Shown in pieces: positions 2,181-64,000 of a stretch of DNA of 64,000 nucleotides; the first letter of the stretch is position 1; each line of letters opens with the position of its first letter. This DNA is from Agelas oroides (lineage: Eukaryota; Porifera; Demospongiae; Agelasida; Agelasidae). The translations under genes and the position numbers were made by a program. The notes under the pieces are model-generated. The model was not told the DNA's origin. It was given only the letters and a program-made list of their open reading frames with translations, and did not search any database. The DNA lies in the NCBI GenBank assembly GCA_949130485.1, contig OX422186.1:69501-133500 (forward strand), given 5' to 3'.

Positions 2181-4373
2181 ATGGGCATTGTCGCAGGATA
2201 TCACTGCTTGATTCATCTTCTAGTTTTGGTAGCACTCTCCACCCCCCTCTCACCCTCCCTGTCCACGACCAAGGGTCCACAACCAACCTCCTTCCACTCA
2301 CAAACTAATATCATTGAACTGCCTACAGTAATAAGCAGTCCAGAAGCAGCAGAAATTCCACAGCAAACCTCCACCAGCAATCTTGTTGAACTGCCTGCAA
2401 TAACAAGCAATCCACAACCTACAGAAAGTCCACAACCAAGTTCACAAACCGATATTGTTGAACTGCGTACAGTCCCACAAGCAACAGAAAGTCCACAGCC
2501 AACCTCCACCAGCCTACAAGCCAATACTGTTGAACTGCAGTTACCTACAGTAACAATCCGTCCACAAGCAACAGAAAGTCCACAGCCAACCTCTGTCAGC
2601 AATCTTGTTGAACTGCCTCCAATAACAGAAAGTCCACAGCCAACCTCTGTCAGTTATCTTGTTGAACTGCCTACAGTAACAAGCAGTCTTCTGGCTACTG
2701 AAAGTCCACAACCAAGTTCACAAACCAACACAGTTTTACTGCCTACACTAACAAGCAGTCCACAGCCAACCTTCATCAGTTCACAAACCCACACAGTTTT
2801 ACTGCCTACAGTAACAAGCAGTCCACAAGCAACCTTCATCAGTTCACAAACCCACACAGTTTTACTGCCTACAGTAACAAGCAGTCCAGAAAGTCCGCAA
2901 CTGCTGGACTTGACCTCAAGTGAAGCATTCAAGCAAACGTCAGATCTTTTAAGAACAGTACAAGTGATACATTCTTCCACCATAGAAAGTTTACTGCCTT
3001 CTAGTTTCGATACACAGCTGCAAACTGGTGTCACACAGCCTCCACAATTGGTTACCATGGAAACAACGATAGTACCTTCAACCACACTTCCACTCTCCCC
3101 CTCCGCAAGCACTATCTTGTCCTCCATTATGCCAACGTTACTTCCATACACTGTTTCTATACAAGCATTCTCTTCTCCCTCGCTTTCTCCCACTCCACCA
3201 CCAACCATACCCACAACTTCTTATGGAGGTGACGTAAGTTGTACTGCAAACCCTTATGATGTCCCAACACAGGAGTAGTACATATACCAGTGAATTATGA
3301 CTAACCATACCAACTGTTACCTTCTGAGCTACAATCATGTTACTAATATTGAATGGGTCAAGTACTTGAGTGGCCCCGGAATACAACTAGTGTCCAATAC
3401 CAGCCACTAGCCTCATTCCCAGATTTTATCTCGCAGCTGTGGGGAAAAATTGGGAGAAGGCCTAGTACCAATACTATGTCACGGATCAGAAATGGTGGAC
3501 TCGGTTTTGTAATGATAGCAACGTGCCCACACAATATGCTACCAGTACAGCAAGCGATCGAAAGTAAAGTTTGCTTAGATGCTTTGCCAACAACTGCAGA
3601 CTTCACAAGTACCTAGTCGCTAATGAATGATTTTTCTCCACAGCTGCAAGATAAATCTGGGAGTGGCCTGGGAACAAGAATGCCAGATACTGGCATGGCC
3701 ATCTGTGCCAATAAATATACACTGACACCGTTGACCGTTTGATGTGGAGATTAGGCACAATTAGAAAACTTTATAACGCCCATCAATGATAATAGTTTCC
3801 ATAGGAATAAATTCAAACGGTGGCACATGGGCCACTATTATTTACATAACGTAATGCAATGCACAAACTATTGTCTACTCCAAGTGCCACACGCCAGATA
3901 TTGGCACAGCACTGCATGCAGCCTGCATGAGGGCCACATAGCTATACATCCAATAGTTTATTCTGTGAGAAAGAACTTTAACATAATTTTTGATTCAATT
4001 GCTTACTATTTCTTTCTCTCTTGTGCAGCCATTGTCTGTCCTGCCCCTGGGAGCTGTCATTGCTGTAGCAGCAGTTGGAGCTGTGCTGCTGTTAGCAGTG
4101 CTAGTCGCCCTTCTTGTCTGTGGCTGGTGTTGTCTGAGACGGCGCAGGAGGTATGAATACAGCACTGGAGAGTATCGAGTCACTGTGCAGACTTGGAACG
4201 CCACCAACCCAATCCATTACACCGTGTCTAAGTCAGGGTCATTCTCCAGTCGAATGTCTAGCATTCGCAGCTCCTTTGGACTAAAGCCAAAGGTCCTGAG
4301 TAATAGCTACAAGGAAAAACAAGACCACTTGTATCGCAATGCTACTACAGATATTTACAGCACTCCACTATGA
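2181..4373 (+). CDS. Mucin-like type I membrane protein (family member A)
   Basis: Two-exon model, 2181-3233 and 4029-4373, joined in phase 0 (donor GTAAGT, acceptor TTGTGCAG), giving 465 aa. Residues about 8-22 form a signal peptide. The ectodomain to residue 351 is almost entirely Ser/Thr/Pro with degenerate repeats built from LVELP, PTVTSS and TESPQPTS, as in O-glycosylated mucin stalks. Exon 2 supplies a transmembrane helix (about residues 357-382), an Arg-rich stop-transfer (RRRRR) and a cytoplasmic tail with several tyrosines (YSTGEY, YRVTV, YTVSKS, IYSTPL) and the motif SSIRSS. I do not recognise a named family. Domain order and exon phase match the genes at 20890 and 24961. An AATAAA lies at 4481-4486, only about 117 bp before the STAM start codon. 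The intron carries a foldback element. Confidence 0.7.
3402..3680. mobile_element. Foldback MITE in intron of mucin-like gene A
   Basis: The left end reads TAGCCTCATTCCCAGATTTT and the right end is its imperfect reverse complement (ATAAATCTGGGAGTGGCCTG then GGAAC). The inner arms around CAGCTGTGGGG and CTCCACAGCTG also pair. The ends match the TAGCCTCGTTCCCAGG family found elsewhere in the window. No transposase is visible inside. Confidence 0.6.
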
Positions 4374-10933: not shown

Positions 10934-12113
10934 TTAATGCACACCAAAATAATGTTAGTATATAATATTATAGTCCAAATCCTCCAGCAATTGAACATGT
11001 TAAGCACCCGTGTTTAGTTGTAGTTTGTATAATACGTTGCCATACTATCTGTTTTGTACAGTCAATTTTGAAAAAAATATTGATGCAGGTCTTGTTCCCA
11101 AATCCTTTATCCAATTTCCCCAAGACGAGTTACCTCTGGCTACGAGACCCATTCACTCACTCCCAGGCCCAGGACAGTTGTTCATTCAATATTGACCTTT
11201 CACCTCACAAAGTAAATGCTGGAACGCTATGTACTCACTCACAGAACCAGCAGTGGTTAGGTTTGTAAATATAAAACCCACAGCCAATTTGATCATAAAT
11301 AGCCATGCCTTATAAACAAGCCCCTCCTTTCAGCAGTAGTATGTGATACCAGTGAATGGAGTAGCCTTGTTCCCAGGCCATTCCCGCCTCCAGTTTTTGA
11401 TCGCTTGCAGTATGCAGTATATACTGCAAGCGATCAAAAACTGGAGGTGCATACTGCAAGCGATCAAAAACTGGAGGTGCATACTGCAAGCGATCAAAAA
11501 CTGGAGGTGCATACTGCAAGCGATCAAAAACTGGAGGTGCATACTGCAAGCGATCAAAAACTGGAGGTGCATACTGCAAGCGATCAAAAACTGGAGGTGC
11601 ATACTGCAAGCGATCAAAAACTGGAGGTGCATACTGCAAGCGATCAAAAACTGGAGGCGGGAATGGCCTGGGAATGAGGCTAGGAAGGGAGAGGTAGTAG
11701 AGATGTAGCCTTGCTTCCACACCTTACCACCGCCTCAATCCCAGTCCCAGGACAGTTGTTCAATATTGACCTTTCACCTCACAAATTAAATGCTGGAACT
11801 CTATGCACTCACTAGCTGACAGAGCTCGAGTGAATAATGATATGACACAATATAGTTATGACGGATCACTGTCCAGGCACTCATCAGTCCCACCTTACCA
11901 CAACTACTGGAACTCCTCAGTCCTCACTCACTGACATTCTTACCATGCCAGGTGATGGATGGAAAGAGAAGGGTCTAGCTCTGATACCAACTTATGATTG
12001 AAACTAATTGCCACTGACTGCTGGTATCATACAACCTTCCCTCTCCACTGTTGCAGGAGCCACTGAAAGTGAATGATAATACAGATATACACAATCTTGA
12101 TTTGATCACATGA
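10934..12113. other. Intergenic repeats between STAM and ITIH-like gene
   Basis: Contains two direct copies of a segment of about 75 bp (around 11161-11240 and 11742-11812, sharing GGACAGTTGTTC, AATATTGACCTTTCACCTCA and AAATGCTGGAAC). These bracket the foldback element at 11362-11682. I see no coding region. Confidence 0.6.
11362..11682. mobile_element. Foldback MITE with internal 30-bp expansion
   Basis: Outer arms TAGCCTTGTTCCCAGGCC (left) and GGCCTGGGAATGAGGCTA (right) are inverted. The left inner arm reads CTCCAGTTTTTGATCGCTTG. The right inner arm, its reverse complement, is present as eight tandem 30-bp copies (about 11424-11655). The flanks GAATGGAG and GAAGGGAG are a possible imperfect target duplication. 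Compare the unexpanded copy at 31502-31610. Confidence 0.8.
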
Positions 12114-14106: not shown

Positions 14107-17100
14107 ATGGCTGCCGCTGGTCGGGGTGCAGTGAAGCGTGTTCTACAAACAGTAGCTGGCTCTGGGTGAGCGGATACGCAGATGTACAGTAACTATACCC
14201 ATGTTAATTATTTAATGCATTGAACCTTGCTTTGTGAACGTGATCACAGCTGCTCCTGCCCCGCCCACTCGCAGGCGTTCAGTGGGTACAGGATACTACC
14301 ACGTAATGGTAAGAGTTGCGTGCTGCAGAGAGAATGTGTGTTCTGTTTCCTAATGAACCCTCTTTTCTCTCTCCACTTTCCCTCCTCCTCCTTTTCCCCT
14401 ACTCTCGCAAGCCACATCCTTCGCAGAGAGAGGAAGGGTTTAATTGGTCACGCTGCAACCATCGAGTTGTCACCACGGCAGAAACTTGCTGTGATCAATG
14501 AGATTCGCACTGTTCATAGATTGCATTTATTGTCATGGAGTCGCAATTATGTCACAACATGTTTAGTGGATGTCAGTATCTTATTATCTAACCACACTCT
14601 TTATAATTGCATTCCTCGGCGACCACTCGTCAGCTGCAGCGTGACCAGACCCTTCCTCTCTGTGAAGGGTGTGGCTTGTGAGACTCTTTTCCCCCTCCCC
14701 CACTTCCTCATCCCTAGTTTCCTCCATGTCTTCTTCCTCTCCTCAGTGTCAGCTTCCCGTCTCCGACAGAGCTCCGCCCACCCTGGGGCAGCTGCGGACA
14801 GGGAGTATGCATTTGAGATGGCGTGCTCAAACATCCGGTATGGGGAGGGGGTGACGAGGGAGGTCGGGATGGACCTGGAGAACCTTGGAGTCAGGAACGT
14901 CTGTGTCTTGACAGATAAAAATGTGCATCCAGAACTGTGTGTGCATTCAGTTCAACTTTTTACCCTCTTCCTACTCTGCCACCCTTCTTCCATGTCCCCC
15001 TCATCCTCCCATTCTCTCTCTCACTTTCCCTACATTTCTTTACCATCCCCCACCCTCTCCGATCCCATCTTCAGCTGGCCAAGCTCCCCCCACTCAAGGC
15101 TACCCTAGACTCCCTACACTCCACCTCAGTACAGTACAGTGTGTACGACAATGTCTCCATAGAACCCACCAATGAAAGGTAATGTAGGTCCAGCAAATGT
15201 CCTCGTTGCTTTGTTGCAAGAAACAAGAAATAGAGAAATAGAAATTAATGTTTTGATTCAGTTGGTGAGTCGCTAGATCTACTAGCCTCTTTCCAGGCCC
15301 CCGTTCCGTGTTCTGTTGCTTTCTGAACAGCAAGGTCCAGAGGAACTGGGGATCAAGCTAATCTAATGTTCAAATACGGAGAGAGCCTGGGGACGAGGCT
15401 ACTTACACCCATACACACATACATGTATGCATACTCACACACATGCACACTTACACCCATACACACACACACATGCACACTCACACACATGCACATCACA
15501 CCCATGCACACCCATGCACACTCACACACATGCACACACACCCATGCACATGCACACTCACACATGCACACACACCCATGCACATGCACACTCACACCTA
15601 TGCACACCCATGCACACTCACACCTATGCACACCCATGCACACTCACACTTATGCACACCCAGCTTTGAGGATGCCATTACTTTTGCTCGCAAAAACCAG
15701 TTTGACGGGTTTCTGGCAGTGGGTGGAGGGTCGGTGATGGACACAGCGAAGGTCGCCAATCTTCTGTCTTGCTCTCCGGAGAACGAGCTACTGGACTTCA
15801 CAAATGCTCCTGTCGGCAAGGGCCAACCCGTCACAAAACCCCTCAAGCCGCTCATTTGCAGTAAGTAACATCTGACCTACAACACAACATAGAGGGCATG
15901 AAATACATGTCCCTACCTCTCCCAGTGAGATGTGATAGAACTCCTTCCCTCCTTCCCTCCTTCCCTCCTTCCCTCCTTCCCTCCTTCCCTCCTTCCCTTC
16001 TTCGATTCTTCCTTTCTCCTTCCTTTCCTCACTCTCTTCCATGATCCCTCTCCCTCTCTCTCCTTCCTCCCCCTCCTCCCCCCCTCCCCCCTCTCCCCCT
16101 CCCTCCTTCCTCTCACTTCCTTAGTCCCAACTACTGCTGGCACTGGCAGTGAGACAACTGGGACGGCTATATTTGACTACAAACCACTCAGAGCAAAAAC
16201 AGGTGCTGTATTTTAACCCAGGAGCCGTCCAGCTAACATTGACTCCTCTCTACCCTTCCTTCCTCCGATCCCTTTGCCATTTCTCCCCTCACCTCTCCTA
16301 CCTCCCCTCCTTCTCCCTCCCCTCCTTCCCTGCTCTTCCCCCCTGCCCCCCTCCCCCCCCCCACAGGTATTGGTAGTCGTGCATTGCGCCCTCTCCTCGG
16401 GATCGTTGACCCTCTACACGTGAGACACATGCCAACAAATGTAGCCGTCTTCAGTGGATTTGATGTACTTTGGTAAACTTAGCTGAGTATGACTACCACC
16501 CACACACACTCACCATCCCTCTTTCCTCCTTTCCCTCCCTCTCTTCCTATCCCACCCCTCCCCCCTCTCTCTTCCTGTCCTCTCACATTTACTAATCATC
16601 CTCCCCTCTCCTTCCCTCTCTCTCCTACCTCCTCCCCCTCCCCTCCTTCGCATCCACTACAGTCATGCATTAGAAGCCTACACAGCCATTCCTTATAAGG
16701 AGCGGACACCACGCCCCTCAAACCCCATCTTGCGCCCGTCCTACCAAGGGAGCAACCCCATATCTGACATTTGGTCCCTCCATGCTCTCAGAATCATGAG
16801 ACAGTACTTCAAGAGGTGAACATGCGTTTGTCAATGTCATAACATTGTGTGTGTGTGTGGAGTCTCCTTCTGCTGTTGTCTAGGGCGGTAAGAGATGCTG
16901 AGGATCAGGAGGCACGCTCTGCCATGCACCTCGCTAGCGTCTACGCTGGAGTGGGGTTTGGGAACGCTGGAGTGCACCTGTGGTGAGTCACATCCTCACA
17001 CCCTCACCATACACTTGTACTCCCTCATAAAACTGCATAGTCACACACCTTCACATTTCACACTCACATCACATGTAGCATATGCAATTCAGCTTCCTTT

Positions 17101-18772: not shown

Positions 18773-20889
18773 CTTAACCATAAAGAGCAAATAATTTGTG
18801 TGTCGTATAATTGTGTGGGTGGATTATAATTGTGAGGATTCTTCTAAGTACATAAATACGTTAGTAAAACATTCTGATGTGCTTCATGAATCATTAATAA
18901 GTTGAATTCTGACTTGCATGTAAAAACCAGCAAGATGTAAACCGGAAATCCCTCCCAAATACCGGAAATAATCACCTTGGTCTGTGGTCATTTGAATTTT
19001 GAGTGGACATTGCCGGAGCCCCCGCCTTAGCCTTAGGACGATTTTACCGCAGGCGACTAGTGTGTCTGCAGACGTTACCGCGCCCAAGCTGTGCCCGAGC
19101 TAGAAGATTTCAAGTTTACGAGTGAGTTGTGTATCCACTGTGCGTCAGCTAGCTACGTGAGGGCGGTAGCATATAGCGGGATAATGTGGGTGTGTTTAGA
19201 TAGTGTTTGTATAAGAACAGGCAAAGGACTGTTTTCTGACCAGGTAGCTACATACTTCACAAACCAACCTCGTTACATAATAGATGTTGATTATATCGAG
19301 GAGAGAATACAGTATATGCTGCAGCATGTACGGCAGCAGATCATTCAAAATGGTGTTGAATCGCAAGCACACTGTAAATTTAATTTGCATAGTGAGAATA
19401 CTTCACTGTTGAGAGAAGTTGCTATTAGTTGTGTTATGAGCTGTTAATATGGACTGGCTGCAGCCTCATCTCCAGATCCACACTCGTTTTTTTTTGCTTG
19501 CAGTATAGAAAGGGGGAGCGTTGAAAACCTGGGCAGGGCCTGGGAACAAGGCTAGGCAGGTTGTGTGTGAGAAATCTTGAACCGAGAGCTCCTGCGGATG
19601 CTTGCAGCAATTCTCATTCAGTTTAATGCTTTATGGTGCTGACCTTGAAAAACTGTTTTGTGGCAGTGTTACAGCATTTCTGTGAACAAATTAAACTTTA
19701 ATGATCCCATGTGGCTCATGTTTCTCATGTGGCCCACAGTCTGCAGTCATTGAGTAATACGATAGTTTCTTATGGGAATAGCCACCCCCTCACTCTGTCA
19801 CTCTACACAGGGCGGACTTAGAACTTAGAGAGACGTTGTGCCCAGCATGTGTATTCAGGCAGGGTATATGGAGGCAATTGAGGTTTCTACAATGCCAAAC
19901 AAAGGCCACTCCTTGGTTTAGGCTTCTCTCGATAACCAAATTGCTTCTTAAAGTCAATATTTACAAGTTTGGATCTCTCTTCAATCTTTTGTTCAATCGC
20001 TATTCAAAAAACAAGTGCCCTTTTGCACGATCATAGTGACAGCACTAGATATACCAGAGGGTATGGTGGTTACCTTCTCCTTCGTCATCATCCTCTACTG
20101 CTTTCATAAACGTACACAAACGTGCATGATATGTGCATAAGCGTACACAAAAGTCTAGACGTACATCACTGTGTCGGAGCTAGCCTCATTCCCAGGCTCT
20201 CTCCTGTGAAAGAGAGACGGAGGCAGCATCAGTGTGGTTGAGCATAGTAACCCAAGGGCACGTTGACCAAGGGCACGTTGACCAAGGGCACGTTGACCAA
20301 GGGCACGTTGACCAAGGGCACGTTGACCAAGGGCACGTTGACCAAGGGCACGTTGACCAAGGGCGCGTTGACCAAGGGCACGTTGACCAAGGGCACGTTG
20401 ACCAAGGGCGCGTTGACCAAGGGCACGTTGACCAAGGGCACGTTGACCAAGGGCGCGTTGACCAAGGGCACGTTGACCAAGGGCACGTTGACCAAGGGCG
20501 CAGCATGGAATAGTCAAGTTTGCAGGTGATTTGGTTAGTAAAAGAAGCTGTGGTAAACAGCTGAGTGTCATGTGGTGTATTCAACAGCAACTACCTCTGT
20601 GGGTGCTGCTGGCACATGCACAAACACCCTCACCTCCAAACAGCAGCTGTAGTCTCAGCTAACACTGGTATCCAAAACAAATACTGTCTGTGTTGGCTGC
20701 CTTGCATTCTGTCTCTCGTAATAGCCTTATGTCTGTGTCCCTCCCTACCTCCCTCCCTTCCTCCCTCCCTCCCTCCCTTCTTCCCCCCTACCTCCCTCCC
20801 ACCCTACCTCCCTATCTCCCTCCCCCTCTCTCCCTCTTTACTAACATTACTACATGTATTTCTCCCCCCCTCCCCTTTGCAGATTGAAA
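18773..20889. other. Gap between ADHFE1 and mucin-like gene C; possible 5' exon
   Basis: No coding region is recognised. A G/C-richer stretch around 19000-19121 ends in a donor-like GTGAGT (about 19122) and may be a non-coding first exon of the next gene, whose coding exon begins right after an acceptor TTTGCAG at 20876-20882. A degenerate end of the TAGCC foldback family (GGCCTGGGAACAAGGCTA) lies near 19537-19554. Confidence 0.35.
20254..20502. repeat. 15-bp minisatellite (GACCAAGGGCACGTT)n
   Basis: About 17 tandem copies with a few GCACGTT to GCGCGTT variants. It is preceded at 20181 by TAGCCTCATTCCCAGG, a foldback-family end, so it probably expanded from within or beside such an element. 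Confidence 0.92.
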
Positions 20890-21393: not shown

Positions 21394-24300
21394 AGACCCT
21401 GCCATTAGTGGTTCTAATTAGTATGCAAAGTATTGGTTATGTGAATGTCATTTTAGAAACTAAATAATAAATGCTCTTCAATTAAGAGCAAACAAAGGGG
21501 TGGCCCCTCTCATTACCGTTGTAATAATGTCTCTAGCCATTACAGTGGTGGGTGTGGCTTTTGTGCTGCTTGTTATGGTACCAAAGGTCAAAACGTTACA
21601 AGTAACAACACTTTTGTCAAAGGGTGTCACAAAAGCAACGTCACATTTTGGCAGATTGTGTCTCTTCCATGACTGCCAACTGAAGTACCCCACCCCCTCA
21701 TTGAGTCTGCCTGTCTACACCTGGTTGCATTGTTATGTAGCCTCACATTTTGGCTCTTTCTGTGCACAGTAAAGGGTCTGGGTACAAGGCTAAACCTCCA
21801 AGTGGCAGCTTATCAGCTCCTGCTAGACAGAAAGGGTTACCAGCTACAAGATTAAGTTTGAATGAACTCCCTATTCTGCCTACCTTAGTCTTGTCCCCAG
21901 GTGCACGGAAAAATGTCCTGGAGTGAGCTACTACCAGCCTACGTGTTAGCCTCGTCCCAGTCCTCCATTGTGCTCATTGCTTGCAGTACAAAATTCGTGA
22001 GGCTTCAAGCTTGCTTCTTGACCTAGCAACTATGCTAGTACTAACCTATGCATTAACCTCGTTCTACGTCCTCCAACTATGCTATTCCATTAACCTCGTT
22101 CTACGTCCTCCAACTATGCTATTCCATTAACCTCGTTCTACGTCCTCCAACTATGCTATTCCATTAACCTCGTTCTACTTCCTCCAACTATGCTATTCCA
22201 TTAACCTCGTTCTACGTCCTCCAACTATGCTATTCCATTAACCTCGTTCTACGTCCTCCAACTATGCTATTCCATTAACCTCCTTCTACGTCCTCCAACT
22301 ATGCTATTCCATTAACCTCCTTCTACGTCCTCTGGAGTGGTAGTCGCTTGCAGGACAACAGTTGTGAGGGTACTATTTATCCTGTGCAGTTGCATCATAA
22401 TCCTGAAGCTCACTGTATGCCATAATGGGGCATGTTCTGTGTGTAGAGTAAGGTATGTGCAGACAGGAAGAGAAGGCTATGGGAGACACTTGGGAGCACA
22501 AGGATGTACACTTAAGGTCGTCCCACTGACACTGGTTGCTTGCACCTCAGAAGCTGTACAAGTGACACAAACAAGCCTTATAGCTAAGGATATGGTGGTG
22601 CCACTAATGGTCGACCTTTTGTTAGCTCATCCCTAAATAGGAGTGGATGTCGCTCACTCATAGTCACTCCACTTTAGTTGAAGCCACATTGTTCTAGTAT
22701 CACCTTGTGATCACTCTAGTCTGAGGAAGGGGGACTACCTCACGCCTCATTGAGCTGGTGGTATGAACTAGAGTAGACATTGCTGATTGAACAAGATTAG
22801 CTATTTCCATGACTGGACTAGCCCATGACCGGACTGGTCCTCGACTGGACCAGGCCTCGACTGGACCAGACCTCGACTGGACCAGGCCTCGACTGGACCA
22901 GACCTCGACTGGACCAGACCTCGACTGGACCAGACCTCGACTGGACCAGACCTCGACTGGACCAGGCCTCGACTGGACCAGGCCTCGACTGGACCAGGCC
23001 TCGACTGGACCAGGCCTCGACTGGACCAGGCCTCGACTGGACCAGGCCTCGACTGGACCAGGCCTCGACTGGACCAGGCCTCGACTGGACCAGACCTCGA
23101 CTGGACCAGGCCTCGACTGGACCAGACCTCGACTGGACCAGACCTCGACTGGACCAGTCGAGGCCTGGTCCAGTCAAGGTCTGGACCAGGGCTGGAATCT
23201 TGATTTTCAGAGGGACTTAGTAAAAGCCAAGATGTTAGCCTTGCACAAAGCTTCTCTCTCTTCTCTTTTCTACCTCCAGTCCACCATTGCTCACAGTGTG
23301 AAGAAATCAACCTGGGAGCAAGCGTAGCATTCCAAGCTGACCAGTGTAATCTTGGTCCCAGACGCCAAACCCCAGCATGCAGCTCCTTAGCATCATACCT
23401 GCACATTATACACACGTTATACGCGCCTGCACTTATCATACCTGCACATTATACACACGTTATATGCGCCTGCACTTTAACAAGACTAAGGGCAGTCGTA
23501 ATGACTCTTGAGTACTGGTCTTAATTAGGCCAGAGACAAGTATGAAGTGCTGGTCACAAGTATGAAGTGTGTTGACACAAGGAGACCAGCGAGTGTTACT
23601 ACCCTACTTAACTGATCTGCCCACCTCATTACTGCGGCCAGAGGAATGCGGAGAATGCCCAAATATGTGTGTTCAGTGAGCCAGCACCCACATGAAGCTA
23701 TGCCAATTTGATTACACGTGAATCGTGCGAGAGTTTGTGAGTGTGTGTGTTGATGGTTGTGGCTAGCAGCAGTCACTCCACGTTTTAGTGTGTGTGTGTG
23801 TGGTGGGGGGGGGGAAGGGAGGAAGGGAGGGGGGACTCACTATGAAGGTTGATACTAGCACCACCTCATGTACCTCATCTCAAAGGAGCACAAGACAGGT
23901 TCACTGTAGCCTCGTTCCCAGGCCTTCCCACCGCCCAGTGTTTGATCGCTTACAAAACTGAACAGTGGGAAGGCGTGGTAGTGATTGCTGCACATGCTGC
24001 GTTACCATTTTAGCCTCATCTCCAAAACCATCTCTTGTCAGTGTGTACAAGACAGTGGATTGGACGTGAGACTCTTTTCTTGACACACACACACAGTCTC
24101 CCACCACACAGTCTCCCACCACACAGTCACCCAGTCCGGTGCCTCTCCCAATTGGAGCCATCGTTGGAGGTGCAGTCGGTGGAGTGTTGCTGTTGGTCGT
24201 AATCGTGATAGTAGCACTACTGTTGTACTTCTGTTTGCGTAGCAAGAAGAAGGGAGAATACGTCACTGGAAGTGAGGGACGACCGTGGATGGTGGTACGC

Positions 24301-29516: not shown

Positions 29517-32500
29517 ATGAGCAAGAAGAAGCAACAGCGTAATGGCTTTTACTACTACATGCTGGATATGCAGCAAGACCTCCGCGAGCGAGGTCGCTTC
29601 GTCCCTATGCGCGACATGCCTCTGCTGGCCGGTCCCTCGTGGTCGAAACTCGCAGACGGACAGAAACAAGCGTACAACCAGCGTGCAAAACACGAGAAGC
29701 GAGCCGGGCTAGTTCAAGGCGGGTCTTCCCTGCCGCCCGCCGTGGCCAGCATGCCGCTTCCCGCTAGTAGAGAGGGCCGTATGGATTGTACTGGCGTCCT
29801 TCTGTCGGTGAGTGTCGTGTGTGTGTTCGACCACTGTGTTCCATGAGCAGTGGTGTCAGATCTAGCATCATATACCGTCTTATTAGGACAGTGTTAGGCC
29901 TACTTTCATCTTGCTTAGGTGATAATTAACCAAAGGGGAACACAATCTCTGTTTAGTAAGGTGGGTAGTCACTTGCAACCTCGATCAAAATGTTTGATCT
30001 GCAAAATGTGTGCTTAATCACTTGATCGTTCCCTTCTGAGGGTCTTGAGCGCTTGATTTTCAGGGTCAAAGATCAAATTGCAGCTATGAATTCTTGATCT
30101 GTTGATTTTAGCAGTTCGGAGATCACCTTGATCCCTTGATCGGCCCCCAAAAAGGGCTTTGATTGCTTGATTTAATTTTGATCCCAGTCGCAAACGCATC
30201 TACATGGGACATATAAGTGACTACCCCTTGTATCCTTTAATTTTGACTCCTCCTGCACAATCTTAAGTTGGTAACAACCCACTTTCAACATCCTCCCTCC
30301 CTCCCTTCTCCCCCCTCCCTTCTCCTCCCTCCCTTCTCCTCCCTCCCTTCTCCCCCCCTCCCTTCTCCCCCCCTCCCTTCTCCCCCCCTCCCTTCTCCCC
30401 CCCTCCCTTCTCCCCCCCTCCCTTCTCTCCCCCTCCCTTCTCCCCCCCTCCCTTCCCCCCTCCCTTTCCCCCCCCAACCACACACACACACTTCACAGGA
30501 ACGTCATGATCTAGCTGCAGAAATGGAAGAACGCAGACGCCATGAAAGTGAGCTCTTACGAGCTTCCTTCCCACCAGGCAAGGCAGTATCCTTGACAAAA
30601 TTCTACCTGGTGGACATCCAGTCACTCTGTGAGATACCAGACAAGAAGGCAGAGCGGTTTTTGCCATGTGAGCTGGCAGCCATTGAGTTCTCCCTCCACT
30701 CAGGGGTCCACAAGTCCCTGCACAAGTTCATCCATCCAGGTATACAATACTGTGTACATGTGAAATTGTGTGTGATGTTATAAGCATAAGTTCAATCAAG
30801 AGCGCATGAGAACGGGTGGCTCGAGTAAGAGTGTGTAACTCCAATAGAAGCCCATAGCCCGGTCAAAATAGAACACCCGGTCACATGCTTAGCAACAATG
30901 GCTTACATGTATGTCTACATGCAGCTGCGTATTATGTGTTACTATTTTAGAGTTACACATTCTTACTCAAGCCGCCTGTTCTTGTGCGCTCTTGGTTCAA
31001 CCCAAAGCTCCTGGCCAGTGCTCTGAGCTAGATTGTGTGGGCTGGTGGTTGTCTAGTAGCTCAAGCACAGGAGCCCTGGGTTTGATTCATGATAACTGCG
31101 GCTTTTCACTTTGCTCTATATGCACACACACACACACACACTCTCTCTCTCTCACAAGGTAAGATTCCCATGGGGTATCGCTTCCTGGCCAAGAACAGCA
31201 GTGAACAGTCCCACGAGATTCCCATCGAAGGATTTGAGCTGGCAGAGAAAGACTACCGTCTGGTGTTGAGTGAGCTCGAAAGATTTCTCTGTCCTGACGG
31301 AATCCAACTACCCCCAGTGTTTGCAAAGGTACTGAACTTAAGTGAGAGGTGGAGGTGGGAGGGAACATTTTATATGTATAGGGAGTATTGTATACATATT
31401 GTATTTTTGTTTCCTGACGTACACCGTCATATATTCTGTGTACCATGTGGTGCGCTACCTCTTTACGCACGCCTTTTTTATCACACAACATGTATCTTGG
31501 CTAGCCTCATTCCTAGGCCTTCCCCGCCTCCAGTTTTTGATCGCTTGCATTTTATTGCATACTGCAAGCAATCAAAAACTGGAGGCGGGGAAGGCCTGGG
31601 AACGAGGCTATACCTTGGCTAGGTAGAGGGGAGGGCTTGAGGGAGTACACCAAATTCATAACTTCAGTCCTAATGTGCTGTTATGGTATATCCTGTGTAC
31701 AGTTAGTGAGGGGTACTACAAACTTGCAGCTGATTGTATGCGTATAGGAGAGATACATATAGGTTTTCTTGTGCACACACACACACACACACACAGCGTG
31801 ACAATGCAGAGCGTGTGGAGTGGTGTCTGCAGTGGCTAGCCGACAAGGCTGGGGTGGAGAATCTGCTGCACAGGGTGTACGAGGTTGAGGCCCTCCTGTG
31901 TGAGCTATCTGCCCACCTGGATGGTAGAGCCCCCACACTGTACCAGGCCCAAGATCTGCTGAAGACCTCGGCGTATGACCACGAGAGAGGAACAAGGTGA
32001 GGAGGGAGGGGCTAAGGGGATATAGGTTGCTTAGGAAGGAAGAAAAGGTAATTCAACGGAAATGTTAGAAACTGATGTTATATTCTCCCTCCCTCCTCCC
32101 TCCCTCCATCCCTCCCTCTATCCATCCCTCCCTCCCTCCCTCCCTCCCTTCCTCCCTCCCAGGTGTGGCTGGCACGAAGAACGTGAGAACAAACACTGTT
32201 CCCTCGGCACCATCAACATCTACTCTTTTGTCCTCTCAGAGTCTCTCTGTCCAAAGTATGGCATCTCTCTCACCAAGAACCATCTCCCTGAGACCCCCTC
32301 AGACCCACCATGTAATGTCGTCAACCCCCGGACTGCCACTCCCTCCCTCCCCCCATCCTCCCATACTATCACCCCCTCACCAGCTTTCTCTACAGGTTAG
32401 ACAGCAACAATACTCTTCTTTAGACTGTAATAAATGCACCTTACTAGTTACCCTGTTCATTATACACTCCTCATATGTCAGATAGAAATCAAGCATTATT

Positions 32501-32773
32501 CTGTCGTGTGCTTGTTCACATTGCCACATATTGCACATCTTCTGTGGGGAAAGTTTGTCATCGTCTAAGGACACACTCACTCCCACATGCCACACACACC
32601 ATTACACACACACTCCTGTAGGTTCTCTGAGTAGTATTGGCTCACTTCCTGATCAATTTGGCCAACTTTCAGTGGGTGGTGGGCGTGGCAGGGGGCGGGG
32701 CTTTGCCTATGGTGCTGTGAGACAACCCAAGACTGTTGGGGGGCTGCAACAGAGCGCAGTGAGCAGACAGTAG
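29517..32773 (+). CDS. MAEL: Maelstrom, piRNA pathway protein
   Basis: Six exons: 29517-29807, 30499-30739, 31159-31328, 31797-31996, 32163-32395, 32622-32773; 428 aa (human 434). Known role: Maelstrom acts in nuage and nucleus in piRNA-guided transposon silencing. Seen: an N-terminal HMG-box (SKKKQQRNGFYYYMLDMQQD, GPSWSKLADGQKQAYNQRAK), then the Maelstrom RNase-H-like domain (AERFLPCELAAIEFSLHSGV, GYRFLAKNSS, SHEIPIEGFELAEKDYRLVL, RFLCPDG, RVEWCLQWLAD). The WHEERENKHC segment supplies the His and Cys expected of the family's conserved Glu-Cys-His-Cys set. The C terminus has a GRGRGRG stretch, as many piRNA factors do. Introns contain a MITE (29958), a C-rich tract (30296-30480) and a foldback element (31502). 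Confidence 0.95.
29958..30229. mobile_element. MITE in MAEL intron 1
   Basis: Inverted ends AAGGTGGGTAGTCACTT (29958) and AAGTGACTACCCCTT (to about 30229) enclose about 270 bp with many TTGATC/GATCAA motifs. No coding capacity and no clear target duplication. Confidence 0.65.
30296..30480 (+). repeat. C-rich tract (CTCCCTTCTCCCCCC)n before MAEL exon 2
   Basis: Tandem CCCTTCTCCCCCCCT units upstream of the acceptor at 30498. Confidence 0.85.
31502..31610. mobile_element. Foldback element in MAEL intron 3, 9-bp TSD
   Basis: A near-perfect hairpin: TAGCCTCATTCCTAGGCC ... CTCCAGTTTTTGATCGCTTG, a short loop, then the inverse ending GGCCTGGGAACGAGGCTA. The flanks TATCTTGGC (31493-31501) and TACCTTGGC (31611-31619) form a 9-bp target duplication with one mismatch. 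Confidence 0.8.
32085..32162 (+). repeat. (CCCT)n tract before MAEL exon 5
   Basis: CCTCCCTCCATCC-type units end directly at the acceptor CCCAG (32158-32162). Confidence 0.8.
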
Positions 32774-32994
32774 GAGGAGGAGGAGGAGGAGAAGGAGGAG
32801 AGGGGGGGAGGTTGAATGGGCACTGTTTTGTTTTGTGCTTCAGTACGTTTTCTATCAGCTATCAACATTTTCTTCAACTGCCACTCAGACAGTCACATCA
32901 CTGTATATATTTTCTTTATATTCTGCCACTGCATGTGTGATTCTTGACATTTGATTTATCAACATGTTTCCATCAATGGTTATGACTGTCTCCT

Positions 32995-33042
32995 TAGTCT
33001 CGGAACCAGACCCTCTGCATGTGAGGGTCTGGTTCCGAGACT
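32995..33042. mobile_element. 48-bp perfect foldback with 10-bp TSD
   Basis: TAGTCTCGGAACCAGACCCT pairs with AGGGTCTGGTTCCGAGACT around a tiny loop (CTGCATGTG region). The direct flanks ACTGTCTCCT (32985-32994) and ACTGTCTCCT (33043-33052) are identical, the hallmark of insertion. Confidence 0.8.
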
Positions 33043-33363
33043 ACTGTCTCCTATACTAGTATTGTCAACTTGGTATCTACTGGGAACACGACTGCTCTCA
33101 TGCGGTATAATATTGTCATAGAAGGCAGTATACAGTGAACTGTACACCTTGGCCTTGTTCCGTCTGGGGAATGTAACTCAATTTGTTTGATGTTATCCCT
33201 AGCCACCTACAGTCACACCCATTATCACCTCCACCATTCCACCCATTTCACTTCAAGTTCCAAGATTTGGTTGCTAAACAACATCTAACAAGCATTGCTC
33301 CAATACACTCAATGATACATTACCTCCTGTAGGCTGTAAGTATTGCTATAATACATTCAATCC

Positions 33364-33440
33364 TAGCCTCGTACCCAGGCCACGTGGTCAGAGGGAAAAG
33401 TGCTTTTCCTTCCGACCACGTGGCCTGGGTACGAGGCTAG
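33364..33440. mobile_element. Foldback element, 8-bp TSD
   Basis: TAGCCTCGTACCCAGGCCAC (33364) and its reverse complement GTGGCCTGGGTACGAGGCTA (to 33439) form a long stem with an inner GGTCAGAGGGAAAAG / CTTTTCCTTCCGACC pairing. TTCAATCC flanks both sides (33356-33363; 33441-33448). Confidence 0.8.
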
Positions 33441-33778
33441 TTCAATCCCAGCTGTCTGTGAACAGTGTCCATTCAACCTCCTCCTACTGTTGAATACTGT
33501 TTTGTTTTGTGCTTCAGTTGCCACTCAGTCACTTGTTTTATTTTTGTGATTCTTGACAATGTCAACAACTTGTCTCCATGCATCTACAGTTTAGTAACCT
33601 TTGCTTGGTAATTGGTATTAAATGGTAGCTACTTGCATTACTTCATATTACATCACAAATTCACAAATACAGTAATCACAAAAACATCAGAAACAGGTAG
33701 AGTTCACACAAACACTACATGTACAGTTATCATGGGTATTTTTTGTGGGTGTGTACTCAGAAATAAATCTCACTCATA

Positions 33779-36700
33779 CTAAAACCTCACTCGGCTGTCC
33801 ACTACTGGCAAAGATCTCGAGTGTCTGGGAAGGAGTAGACTTTCCACTGTTGTATTGTGTGTCATAGAGTCAATCAGTTTCTGAATGCCTTCCTCACCTC
33901 TGGAATCATCAAATTGTAAGTTCAGGAATTTCAATGATTTGTTTGTAAGCAGCATGTCAGCAAGTGCTGCAGCTCCTTTGTCTCCAATTGGGTTCCGATT
34001 CAGCCACAACTTCTGAAGTGTGTTATTTGTGCATAGAGCATTTGCCAAATGACATGCTCCATTCGAGTCAATGTTGCATCCTCCTAGGCCAAGGCCAACA
34101 ACTAGGGTGTGATTTATCTTTAGCATATCAGCAAATGCAGCAGCTCCTTTGAATCCAATTGGGTTGTCTCTCAGGTTAAAATCATGCAGTGTGTCATTTG
34201 CACACAGAGCACTTGCTAACTCACATGCTACATCTGATTTAATGTCACAGTCACTCAGCCAGAGGCTAACAATTGTGTGATTTGTCCTCAGCATATCAGC
34301 AAATGCAGTAGCTCCTTTGACTCCAATTGGGTTGTTCTCCAGGTTCAACTTCTGCAGTGTATGATTTGTACACAGAGTACTTGCCAATTGACATGCTCCA
34401 TCTGAGTCAATGTCGCATTCCATTAAGTCTAGATTAACAAGGGTTTGGTTTGTCCTTAGTAGCTCAATGAGTGCAGCAGCTCCTTTGACTCCAATTGAGT
34501 TGTTTGCTAAGCTCAATGCTTGCAGTGTATGATTTGTACACAGAGCACTTGCCAATTGACATGCTCCATCTGAGTCAATGTCGCATTCCCATAGGTCGAG
34601 GTCAACAAGGGTGCGGTTTTTCTGTAGTGCTGAAGCCAGTGAGATGACATTCTGATGAGAAAAGTATGAGCAACTCATGTGCAACATCTTGAGTGTGGTG
34701 TTGTGATGGAGTCCACAGATGATCAGTTCAATAGCTTCTGGAGGGAGGTGATTAAAACTGATGTCAAGCTCCTTGAGACTTGTGGATAATGACAGCAGTT
34801 CACTCAGAGCTCGGCAGTCCTCCATACCTATTCCAGTGTCACGCAACCACAGCTTCTCAAATGAATTATTAGCTGTCAAAGCTGTAATTGCCGGAACAGC
34901 CCCTCCTGGGCCAATGTTGTAACCAACAGACAGACTGAGTATTTTCAACTTGTTTATCAATTGCTTTGGAATGCTAACTAGATGTTTCACTGCCTCTGCT
35001 GTGATATCACTTTTTTCCAAGTTTATCATAGAGATCCCTCCCGTGCAGTATGCTTCCTCCTCCAATGTACCTTGCACTAACATTTCCACTTCCTCATCTC
35101 CAATGCCACAGCAGTGAAGGTCAATATTCCAGGCACAATTGCTATGAGACACACAGTAGCCCAACACAAAGCAGTCAGACGGTGTCACTATCCTTTGCCA
35201 ACAGGGCTGAATGTAAGATGATCCTAGCACTTTAGCTATGACATCTGCTTCAAATAACCAGTGCAGAATATCAAAGGTGACTTCATGTAGTGGTTTGTCA
35301 TCAGTTTCAACATTACCAGGTTCTATGTCAAAATCGTCAATGTGTTTCTTCACACACAATGTGTTCATCACCTCACAAGGGTACTCACTGAACTTCTTTA
35401 TTCCAGATAGGAACCACAGCACCATCTGAAGGTGGTTATTTGCTTGTTTATCTTCTCCGGAACAGTACTGCTTATAAAGTTCAATCTGTTCCTCCACTGG
35501 CTGCTGTGAGAGGTGAAATGCAGCTAGATACTCTTGCACAGTCAAGTGCAGGAAGTTGTAGGAAACCATTGCATCTTCACCCGCATACAGTTCTGGGACG
35601 CATTGCATCAGACCCAGGGTTTCAAAGTCCTCTGAGAGATCAGAGAAAATCACCTGCTGTTTGTTAATTATTCCTTTGTACGCTATTTTGCCTAATTCAC
35701 ATAGCTGTTGGTAGACATCTTGGGGTAGGTCACTAAAACTGCGTATCTTCCAGTTGCGCCGTAGCAGATCACGAATTAGAGAAAAATACAGCTCCGTGGT
35801 GGTTTTTGGGACCAGGGCCTTGTTCCTGTTGTTGCGGTAGATTTCAACCACAAAGGTAGAATAGAGAGGAATATACATTAAACTACCAATGTGGGGGTAA
35901 CACGAGATGTATTTTTTCAACCCTTCCAACAGTGAGGGGTCATCAGCTGTGGTGCTCTCTAAATAGGACTGGATGTTGGCTTTGGTGAATCCCAGGATCT
36001 CAATATGTTGGGATATGCGGCTCTTACATTCTCTGTGGAGGAACTCACTTGCCCATGGGCGGCTGGTGATGAGGACTGTGGCCTCTGGTAACTCCCTCCC
36101 TGTGATGATGTCAATAAAAATGGAATTCTCAATTCGCAATTCCTCTGGGAGTTCATCATATCCCTCAAACAGAAGGATTACCCTTTTACCCTGTGTTCTT
36201 TGGATCTCCTCAACTGCTGCTTGCTGAATCTGATGGTTATGGTATCGAAAGAGGTCAGATATTTTCTTCGCAGCTCGCACACTCTTGTCTCGGAACCTAA
36301 GGAGAACAACCAGCTGGTACTGCCAGAGTAATTTCCCCTTCCCCCACTTGCGGCAGAGTTTCCAGGCAAAAGTGGACTTTCCCACACCTGGCGCCCCCTC
36401 TACAAGGATGCACTTTGGTTGTGATCCATCTGGCAGCTGGGCAATTTGGCCAATGTTCATGGCTCGCTTTGACTTCTTGATGTCATCAATGTTCCCACGG
36501 ATTGTAGCTCTCATAAACTGATCTGCCTCTTGCTTTGTGATGTCCTCCTTTTCAATGAGGGCAAGGTTGATGTATTTCTTGGATTTCACTTGCGGCCATT
36601 TGTCATAAATTGGTAGTTTCTCTCGTGTGTAGACAGACTTGAGGTAGGAGGCATAACTATCAACTGCAAACAATCGACAACAAGGAGTTGTACACTGCAT

Positions 36701-37195
36701 GAAGCATACCTGTGTTTGGTGATTTTGCTGGAAGTGGATGGGGTGTTCCAAGTGATATCGATGGTGGGATTGCAAGACATTGTCTATTCTAGGTCGTTTA
36801 GCAGATGGGAGTGGTAGAGGGGAAGTGACATCCACCAAACTGGGCAGTGGGCTGGGTGGGGTTGACATGGACGGTCGTATGCTTGCCAACTCACGGTGTG
36901 TATTCTCCAGCCTTGTTGCCAGGTGCTGCAGTGATGGCTCGTTCTGAAGAACATCCAGGAATTCCCTGAACTTGATGGCAGGACTAGGCACAATCTGGTC
37001 TTCAACTGCTGACAGGAGCGTCACAATCTTGACTCTCTCTTCAATACCTGACTTCTGAGCCTCTGTACGTAGCTCTCGTCCAATCAGCTCCTTTGAGTAC
37101 AGTTGAACAGCCAGCCACCCAGGGTCCGATATCCCATCAGCTAGGTCAGCAAAACACTTACGAAAAGCGTGACACTCCGCTGGCTCGCGAGACAT
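33779..37195 (-). CDS. NACHT-LRR (NLR) receptor with CARD-like N terminus
   Basis: Single exon, 1138 aa, minus strand, start 37195. Residues about 1-100 are helical and CARD/death-fold-like (VKIVTLLSAVEDQI, FREFLDVLQNEPSLQHLATR). A Pro-rich linker (about 107-135) follows. The NACHT NTPase has Walker A GAPGVGKST (about 267-275), Walker B VILLFEGYDELP (about 339-350) and TSRP (about 377-380), then winged-helix and helical parts (FLHLTVQEYLAAFHLSQQ near 548). Ribonuclease-inhibitor-type leucine-rich repeats of 28 aa (NHTLQ-L-L-NNPIGVKGA-ALADML) run from about 690 to 1110. By family knowledge this is a cytosolic sensor of microbial or danger signals. Bipartite death-fold NLRs are expanded in sponges. 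The lack of introns beside intron-rich neighbours is notable. I cannot settle CARD versus DEATH versus DED. Confidence 0.9.
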   Translation of the reverse strand: MSREPAECHAFRKCFADLADGISDPGWLAVQLYSKELIGRELRTEAQKSGIEERVKIVTLLSAVEDQIVPSPAIKFREFLDVLQNEPSLQHLATRLENTHRELASIRPSMSTPPSPLPSLVDVTSPLPLPSAKRPRIDNVLQSHHRYHLEHPIHFQQNHQTQVCFMQCTTPCCRLFAVDSYASYLKSVYTREKLPIYDKWPQVKSKKYINLALIEKEDITKQEADQFMRATIRGNIDDIKKSKRAMNIGQIAQLPDGSQPKCILVEGAPGVGKSTFAWKLCRKWGKGKLLWQYQLVVLLRFRDKSVRAAKKISDLFRYHNHQIQQAAVEEIQRTQGKRVILLFEGYDELPEELRIENSIFIDIITGRELPEATVLITSRPWASEFLHRECKSRISQHIEILGFTKANIQSYLESTTADDPSLLEGLKKYISCYPHIGSLMYIPLYSTFVVEIYRNNRNKALVPKTTTELYFSLIRDLLRRNWKIRSFSDLPQDVYQQLCELGKIAYKGIINKQQVIFSDLSEDFETLGLMQCVPELYAGEDAMVSYNFLHLTVQEYLAAFHLSQQPVEEQIELYKQYCSGEDKQANNHLQMVLWFLSGIKKFSEYPCEVMNTLCVKKHIDDFDIEPGNVETDDKPLHEVTFDILHWLFEADVIAKVLGSSYIQPCWQRIVTPSDCFVLGYCVSHSNCAWNIDLHCCGIGDEEVEMLVQGTLEEEAYCTGGISMINLEKSDITAEAVKHLVSIPKQLINKLKILSLSVGYNIGPGGAVPAITALTANNSFEKLWLRDTGIGMEDCRALSELLSLSTSLKELDISFNHLPPEAIELIICGLHHNTTLKMLHMSCSYFSHQNVISLASALQKNRTLVDLDLWECDIDSDGACQLASALCTNHTLQALSLANNSIGVKGAAALIELLRTNQTLVNLDLMECDIDSDGACQLASTLCTNHTLQKLNLENNPIGVKGATAFADMLRTNHTIVSLWLSDCDIKSDVACELASALCANDTLHDFNLRDNPIGFKGAAAFADMLKINHTLVVGLGLGGCNIDSNGACHLANALCTNNTLQKLWLNRNPIGDKGAAALADMLLTNKSLKFLNLQFDDSRGEEGIQKLIDSMTHNTTVESLLLPRHSRSLPVVDSRVRF

Positions 37196-37711: not shown

Positions 37712-57201
<19,490 letters not shown>

Positions 57202-63595: not shown

Positions 63596-64000
63596 CACAG
63601 GGGCACACGGCTCCCAGCTACAAAGCTTGCTAGGAGTGGGGAGTCCACAGCAACAGCAGCTGATGGAACAGCTCATCAGTTCCGGAGCTCTTGGCAGCAT
63701 GCTCCACCCCTACGAGACTGGGAGATCACCAAAGTACGTAACAACTAACCGTGTCAAACGTATTATGGTAGCATTCCTGTCATTTTTGACCACAGCAAGC
63801 AGTCATGTAGGAAGGTCAGGAATGAGGACTAGCCTCTTACCCAGGCCCTGTGAATGAGGCTAAATGAGGATATGCTTGTAGCAGTAGTAAGCTGTTGACA
63901 TTTCGTCTCTACAGTCGTGGTAGCAGTGCTACCGGAGGTACCAGGTCCTCGCCAGGTGTCACTCCTTCCAATAGCAGTGCTCCCGGCACTACCCCACAGG
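62205..64000 (+). CDS. ADRM1: Proteasomal ubiquitin receptor ADRM1/Rpn13 (partial)
   Basis: Five exons in the window: 62205-62399, 62705-62863, 63365-63458, 63601-63733, 63915-64000 onward. Rpn13 sits on the 19S regulatory particle, binds ubiquitin through its PRU domain and recruits UCH37 through its C-terminal DEUBAD domain. Seen: the full PRU domain (SLVEFRAGKMKRTGSTVTAD, RKGLAFMKMEDGLLHFLWKD, DFIIFPGDAEMKRVPQCTTG, RVFLLKFRDSTTRRFFYWLQ, EPKEDKDEDLLKKVNELIDN), then a Gly/Gln/Ser linker (LQSLLGVGSPQQQQLMEQLI). The DEUBAD domain lies beyond the window. Start 62205 (MAALFGQSS) is preferred over an upstream in-frame ATG at 62127 because it gives the expected short leader. The plus-strand intron 1 is purine-rich, unlike most introns here. 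Confidence 0.95.
63525..63592 (+). repeat. (GCAC)n(CA)n microsatellite in ADRM1 intron 3
   Basis: ACGCACGC units followed by a CA run up to CTCACAG acceptor at 63594-63600. Confidence 0.9.
63830..63862. mobile_element. Minimal foldback element, 9-bp TSD
   Basis: TAGCCTCTTACCCAGGCC joined almost directly to GTGAATGAGGCTA; 33 bp in all. The flanks AATGAGGAC (63821-63829) and AATGAGGAT (63863-63871) form a 9-bp duplication with one mismatch. Confidence 0.65.

Follow-up and report, generated by a model that had tools for sequence, protein, structure and literature searches.

How small can a transposon be and still move? The question is raised by a 64-kb stretch of the genome of the sponge Agelas oroides (contig OX422186.1, positions 69,501 to 133,500; hereafter the window), in which short palindromes share TAGYCTCG-type ends. 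These palindromes belong to a real and abundant family of foldback elements, or miniature inverted-repeat transposable elements (MITEs), that duplicate 9 bp of their target, as is seen from their common ends, the duplication itself, their abundance throughout the genome, longer elements that end in the same way and a member on a sponge-like contig from another source. Insertions of 24-80 bp at thousands of places form a natural series in which this size limit can be studied, and the collapse of palindromes in an animal genome can be approached through the same series. We infer, with a probability of roughly 55%, that the elements are non-autonomous and moved in trans, most likely by the transposase of a Mutator-like element (MULE), and that the forms of 24-50 bp are mostly remnants of elements that collapsed after insertion. 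Among the open-access papers listed in literature searches, none deals with the TAGYCTCG family.

Shared ends and a 9-bp target duplication

A scan of the window with the 18-mer end motif TAGCCTCGTTCCCAGGCC, allowing up to three mismatches, returned 15 matches versus 0.02 expected from shuffles, and the palindromes for which shared TAGYCTCG-type ends had been claimed are present. Among the eight places named in the original prediction, four are convergent end pairs flanked by 9-bp duplications that match at 8, 9, 8 and 8 of 9 positions, as listed here (palindromic elements carry no strand assignment):

31493..31501, + strand: left 9-bp target duplication TATCTTGGC, 8/9 against the right copy
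31502..31610: palindromic element of 109 bp, arms of 48 nt, 94% complementary
31611..31619, + strand: right 9-bp target duplication TACCTTGGC, partner of TATCTTGGC, 8/9
32986..32994, + strand: left 9-bp target duplication CTGTCTCCT, 9/9
32995..33043: perfect palindrome of 49 bp with a 7-nt loop and TAGTCTCG ends
33044..33052, + strand: right 9-bp target duplication CTGTCTCCT, 9/9
33355..33363, + strand: left 9-bp target duplication ATTCAATCC, 8/9
33364..33439: palindromic element of 76 bp with TAGCCTCGTACCCAGGCC ends, arms 95% complementary
33440..33448, + strand: right 9-bp target duplication GTTCAATCC, partner of ATTCAATCC, 8/9
63821..63829, + strand: left 9-bp target duplication AATGAGGAC, 8/9
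63830..63862: 33-bp element, one mismatch to TAGYCTCG at each end
63863..63871, + strand: right 9-bp target duplication AATGAGGAT, partner of AATGAGGAC, 8/9

The size of the duplication had been put at 8-10 bp, a range that narrows to 9 bp, where the counts peak both in the window with strict ends and in a larger sample. With ends held to at most one mismatch to TAGYCTCG (66 ends), the window yields four duplications at 9 bp and none at 7, 8, 10 or 11 bp; with up to two mismatches (595 ends), the counts at 7, 8, 9, 10 and 11 bp are 9, 8, 6, 0 and 0, the looser ends bringing in chance pairs as noise. A 264-kb sample was made up of the window and 20 stretches of 10 kb placed at even spacing. Of its 541 convergent end pairs no more than 5 kb apart, 12 have a 9-bp duplication matching at 8/9 or better, versus only 2 of 20,339 when left flanks are paired with foreign right flanks. 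Other lengths, with one mismatch allowed, give 4 duplications at 6 bp, 1 at 7, 1 at 8 and 0 at 10-12. Where both flanks survive, the target duplication is of one fixed size, exactly 9 bp. Among the four flanks given earlier, ACTGTCTCCT includes a shared A and TTCAATCC consists of the matching 8 of 9 bases, the other two being 9 bp long. The prospect that duplications might prove no commoner than chance, raised at the outset, did not materialise.

Across the whole genome (259.3 Mb, 141 contigs), exact 8-bp ends TAGYCTCG...CGAGRCTA delimit 1,779 places 20-50 bp long versus 6 for the reversed control, and 3,056 places 51-81 bp long versus 1; both figures take in copies riding inside larger repeats and are not insertion counts. 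The inverted terminal repeats are common to many dispersed copies, as in MITEs, and the prediction of a foldback family that inserts with target duplications is upheld genome-wide as well as on the sponge-like contig. Given their very strong foldback potential, the palindromes could be imagined as conserved regulatory or RNA hairpins rather than insertions, an explanation to which we attach next to no credence, with 9-bp duplications far above chance and palindromes at thousands of places. A caution follows for such genomes, where short hairpins may be transposon remnants and not regulatory or RNA structures.

Longer members with the same ends were found in the loci examined (L numbers). Perfect (9/9) duplications flank L024:6086-6724 (639 bp), L013:5890-6361 (472 bp) and L027:5729-6057 (329 bp). 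At L019:245-639 (395 bp) the flanks match at 7/9 and the arms exceed 100 nt. Foldback elements have long inverted arms, often with tandem repeats inside; a tandem array lies in the window element at 11362-11682. By eye, the ends of longer members run TAGYCTCG, a short spacer and CCAGRC, followed in several by a variable stretch and an inverted GYCTGG, and in some by TCACGTGA-like and GGTAGA-like words. The 31502-31610 element matches that at 11362-11682 and, again judged by eye, resembles the ends of L019:245-639. When the flanks of L015:5463-5564 are joined, the sequence spanning the join aligns at 82-91% with tandem units nearby; this is consistent with empty sites, although such matches come easily in a tandem array.

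On LWTN01000165.1 (L081), a contig of 42% GC filed under a Poecilosclerida sponge symbiont, a 147-bp palindrome again has these ends and is flanked by a 9-bp duplication, GTATGCACC, that matches perfectly. The contig is probably host sponge DNA, because its broken open frames read by eye like immunoglobulin-type animal exons. The contig belongs to a Cycloclasticus metagenome-assembled genome and is probably mis-binned.

Target preference was assessed with one 9-mer per event in 35 events picked for duplications of at least 8/9, one of them from L081 and with a 27-bp event excluded. A purine at position 1 and a pyrimidine at position 9 (R1/Y9) account for 52 of 70 positions (p ~6e-5), where random 9-mers give 50%. 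The 22 elements of up to 50 bp have this bias (33/44, p 0.0013), and the 13 longer ones have it in weaker form (19/26, p 0.029); in the elements of up to 50 bp, Y2/R8 is also biased (34/44). The weak target signature common to tiny and longer elements suggests that both use the same kind of insertion machinery.

The other four predicted places comprise one pair with imperfect flanks, two without a duplication and one lone end; what had been placed at 3402 and 23911 lies at 3408-3682 and 23907. These are listed with the remaining window features:

3408..3682: degraded longer element, a weak pair with a good left end, a right end with 3 mismatches and no duplication (1/9)
11362..11682: element of 321 bp with convergent ends, belonging to the 31502 family, 9-bp flanks 7/9
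11421..11657, + strand: tandem array of 7.9 copies of a 30-bp unit, 100% match, made of the arm sequence of the 11362-11682 element
15283..15401: convergent end pair of 119 bp, no target duplication (2/9)
19537..19554, - strand: lone end from the 18-mer scan
20181..20198, + strand: lone end from the 18-mer scan
21775..21792, - strand: lone end from the 18-mer scan
23907..23924, + strand: lone perfect end TAGCCTCGTTCCCAGGCC with no good or intact partner
48042..48059, - strand: lone end, 26 bp identical to the 34-bp element L006
51958..51975, - strand: lone end from the 18-mer scan

Elements of 24-50 bp

Twenty of 50 listed elements of 20-50 bp, with short and repeated ones favoured, were taken and represent 11 insertion events. 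Nine of these events carry a 9-bp duplication of at least 8/9, including elements of 24, 29, 38, 40, 41, 42 and 43 bp, while two, one of 38 bp and one of 46 bp, are without; for the 27-bp event the duplication (8/9) is found in just one, the best, of six copies. Elements of 34, 36, 50, 51, 94 and 106 bp with duplications are also present in the loci examined, and two 34-bp copies (L006 and L007) share flanks and count as one event. The claim that elements this small carry insertion duplications is borne out in the window itself, by the 33-bp element at 8/9 and the 49-bp one at 9/9.

Several tiny elements are present in multiple copies. One element of 45 bp, recognisable by a private mark, has 23 copies (L011:8578-8622 and 22 other places), and the 21 whose flanks were read have those of one insertion site within a larger dispersed repeat, small differences aside; in the L064 copy the left flank is missing a short piece. 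Self-mobility of the 45-bp element was rejected on these common flanks. Its empty site gave 0 matches at up to two mismatches, a result that is silent on insertion either way. The 24-, 27-, 41- and 46-bp copies examined are likewise single insertions multiplied inside larger repeats. The repeated tiny elements examined, the 32-bp one aside, are passengers in larger repeats, which weakens copy counts as a measure of mobility.

The 32-bp element, a perfect palindrome, is present in 11 identical copies; only L031 and L032 share flanks, which leaves 10 independent sites. Eight of the 10 sites have a 9-bp duplication of at least 8/9, one has a duplication of 8 bp and one has none. An identical palindrome at 10 independent sites, eight times with its own 9-bp duplication, invites the idea that the 24-50-bp palindromes are themselves mobile, a transposase excising and reinserting near-fused terminal repeats, and the idea draws further support from the R1/Y9 signature in tiny elements as in long ones and from the two good arms kept in many short elements. 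We nevertheless consider it unlikely. With GGCC in both arms, independent collapses would converge on one and the same 32-bp product; the other multi-copy elements examined (24, 27, 41, 45 and 46 bp) are single insertions within larger repeats; and lengths of 50-69 bp lack helical phasing. Moreover, the smallest size reported in vivo for bacterial cut-and-paste elements is 64-70 bp (PMC3464196). We rather doubt that the 32-bp palindrome in particular, two fused tips without an interior, moves by itself in this genome of an animal; if it did, it would be among the smallest transposable units known, with a transposase acting on ends that meet mid-element.

Whole-genome counts of places per length bin are 630 at 50-54 bp, 798 at 55-59, 456 at 60-64 and 274 at 65-69. 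Values for single lengths, which are extrapolated from the first 50 places per bin and include copies inside larger repeats, peak at 52-53, 55-57, 61 and 67 bp, which look like family sizes, and no helical phasing of lengths is seen at 50-69 bp. A cluster at 24-32 bp, a gap at 33-37 and a peak at 47-48 had at first suggested phasing, a pattern that did not hold up; there are elements of 33, 34 and 36 bp.

The arms of 38 distinct elements of 24-50 bp were also compared. Eighteen are near-complete palindromes, in 20 the perfect outer arm stops within 11 bp, and with two mismatches allowed the arms are at most 13 bp long in eight. Given this last figure, loss of one arm is not claimed as the usual state of short elements. 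Near-complete palindromes with small loops (these 18, and those at 33364 and 32995) might alternatively have been made directly, if one end folded back and was copied from itself during repair or replication to give an inverted dimer. Such an origin is quite improbable: parents with two similar ends exist, as at L019:245-639 with its arms of over 100 nt, so simple loss of the middle suffices, and substitutions separate the arms of the 31502 and 33364 elements (94% and 95% complementary).

Candidate collapse products and a candidate driver

In the reading that we prefer, with the tiny forms as remnants of larger insertions, a transposase acting in trans, most likely Mutator-like, would cut the target with a 9-bp stagger. 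It would insert members of about 50-640 bp that bear TAGYCTCG, a 3-5-base spacer and CCAGRC at both ends, several of them with the CCAGRC part repeated next to it in inverted, subterminal form. The target, weakly symmetric, would be duplicated over 9 bp. After insertion, the interior may be lost when the two ends join at repeats of 3-8 bp (ACG, TACC, GGCC, CCACGTGG), possibly through incomplete repair following excision or through slippage across the hairpin. Collapse of this kind would keep both tips and the original duplication, leaving remnants of 24-50 bp.

Junctions that fit this scheme were read in four cases. The first 47 bp of the 53-bp element L024:9319-9371 are 98% identical to the ends at L024:6724(-) and L027:6438(-), after which, by eye, the other tip follows with its six final bases, joined at ACG. 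L006 and L007 (34 bp) match the window end at 48059(-) over 26 bp and then, also by eye, join at TACC. The 33364-33439 element is identical over 24 bp at each tip to the 40-bp element L051, which by eye corresponds to both tips minus the stretch between copies of CCACGTGG, while the 32-bp palindrome reads as the product expected of a join at GGCC. These junctions suggest that the middle was lost between short repeats once the element had inserted. For animal terminal inverted repeat elements, joints made by gap filling are described as having microhomology (PMC8277862).

As to the driver, the Mutator-type transposase guessed at in the original prediction fits in size, the 9-bp duplication falling in the MULE range of about 8-11 bp, and MULE transposases are present: PF10551 has 119 matches at E <=0.001 genome-wide (best 3.3e-17) among the 150 scored of 194 candidates, one group of equal scores having open frames of up to 474 aa. 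Equal-scoring MULE domains with long open frames may reflect recent activity. A decayed ALS2CR8/MULE-like relic lies at L027:1802-3608 (MULE motif by eye), its ALS2CR8 stretch (E 8e-23, L027:2637-3608) being 2.1 kb from TAGYCTCG-family elements; it was rejected as the autonomous element, since it is not bounded by TAGYCTCG ends. Neither this relic nor the 119 PF10551 matches could be tied to such ends. Elements supported by a duplication span 24-639 bp, too short for a whole transposase and in keeping with the non-coding nature of MITEs. The proposed search for a longer carrier of a transposase with the same ends recovered same-end members of 329-639 bp, none of which was seen to be coding.

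The insertions could be genuine and their driver something other than a MULE. Other superfamilies with 8-9-bp duplications exist (e.g. Merlin, Rehavkus), and such a driver would agree with the want of any transposase tied to the ends, the domains of other superfamilies not having been searched genome-wide. We regard it as possible, if on the unlikely side, given that MULE domains are abundant with long open frames and that foldback structure with 9-bp duplications is known in the MULE-related Tm1 family (PMC3169594).

Several observations weigh against MULE-driven insertion followed by collapse. Among the 13 longer elements the Y2/R8 preference does not reach significance (16/26, p 0.33), and no transposase was seen between two TAGYCTCG ends when Pfam was run on 99 of 412 open frames (321 kb; interiors not scanned singly). 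The parents of the proposed collapses were picked afterwards, in only four cases, that of the 32-bp palindrome being just a reading of its sequence, and the presence of this palindrome at 10 independent sites is also expected of a self-mobile 32-bp element. A search for lengthened forms of the 45-bp element in its carriers came up empty but says little, the 21 left-flank sites being the known 45-bp copies, and clear one-arm loss is a minority state among short elements (8/38 with arms of at most 13 bp).

Known systems and neighbouring sequences

Extremely short members set the TAGYCTCG family apart as a variant of a known element type. MITEs are short and non-coding, with inverted ends, a duplication of fixed size and thousands of copies, and are usually about 50-600 bp long; the sponge family shares the inverted ends, the fixed 9-bp duplication and the occurrence at thousands of places, but its 24-50-bp members fall below that size. 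Drosophila Foldback (FB/NOF) and Tetris-type elements have inverted ends and tandem repeats within their arms, FB with 9-bp duplications. The sponge family resembles them in its inverted ends, 9-bp duplication and the arm array at 11421-11657; this array, however, is found in 11362-11682 alone among the elements read, and many sponge elements are far shorter.

The Tm1 Mutator/Foldback family of root-knot nematodes has 9-bp duplications, foldback ends of variable length and MITE-like members, typically under 0.5 kb, alongside transposase-coding ones (PMC3169594). The 9-bp duplications, foldback ends and short MITE-like members of the sponge family are similar, whereas its end motifs differ, Tm1 having asymmetric 7-bp tips and a Phantom-type transposase; the available part of the Tm1 account (PMC3169594) mentions no elements of tens of base pairs, and in the sponge family no coding member was seen. 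The internal eliminated sequences of Paramecium are transposon remnants with a minimum of 26 bp that keep both tips; a domesticated piggyBac enzyme removes them in every generation, and their sizes have a periodicity of about 10 bp (PMC3464196). They are alike in having shrunk to tens of base pairs with both tips kept; excision in each generation is a feature of the Paramecium sequences, and their periodicity has no counterpart in sponge lengths of 50-69 bp.

The elements near 33 kb adjoin an NLR-type gene, a 1138-aa open frame with a NACHT domain (E 2e-20) and leucine-rich repeats at 33779-37195 (- strand). Other repeats are abundant across the window, where minisatellites and CT/GA-rich simple arrays contribute to 164 rows in the repeat scan. 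A 16-bp tandem array of about 20 copies at 22839-23189 continues inverted, so that inverted repeats as long as 100 nt are nested there, and an inverted repeat without TAGYCTCG ends lies at 30790-31001 (arms of 55 nt, 84% complementary, 102 nt apart). In a 17-mer scan over genome contigs, 46 stretches matched, cyanobacteria among them and some by chance. A link to cyanobacterial hairpins was rejected, the bacterial hairpin CTCGTTCCCAGGCTCCTGCCTGGGAACGC being without the CGAGRCTA right end. This hairpin is repeated in Microseira wollei (L086, L088, L090, L091, L095, L103, L105, L110, L113, L119 and L123) and is also found in other cyanobacterial loci; it resembles half of the end motif, probably by convergence.

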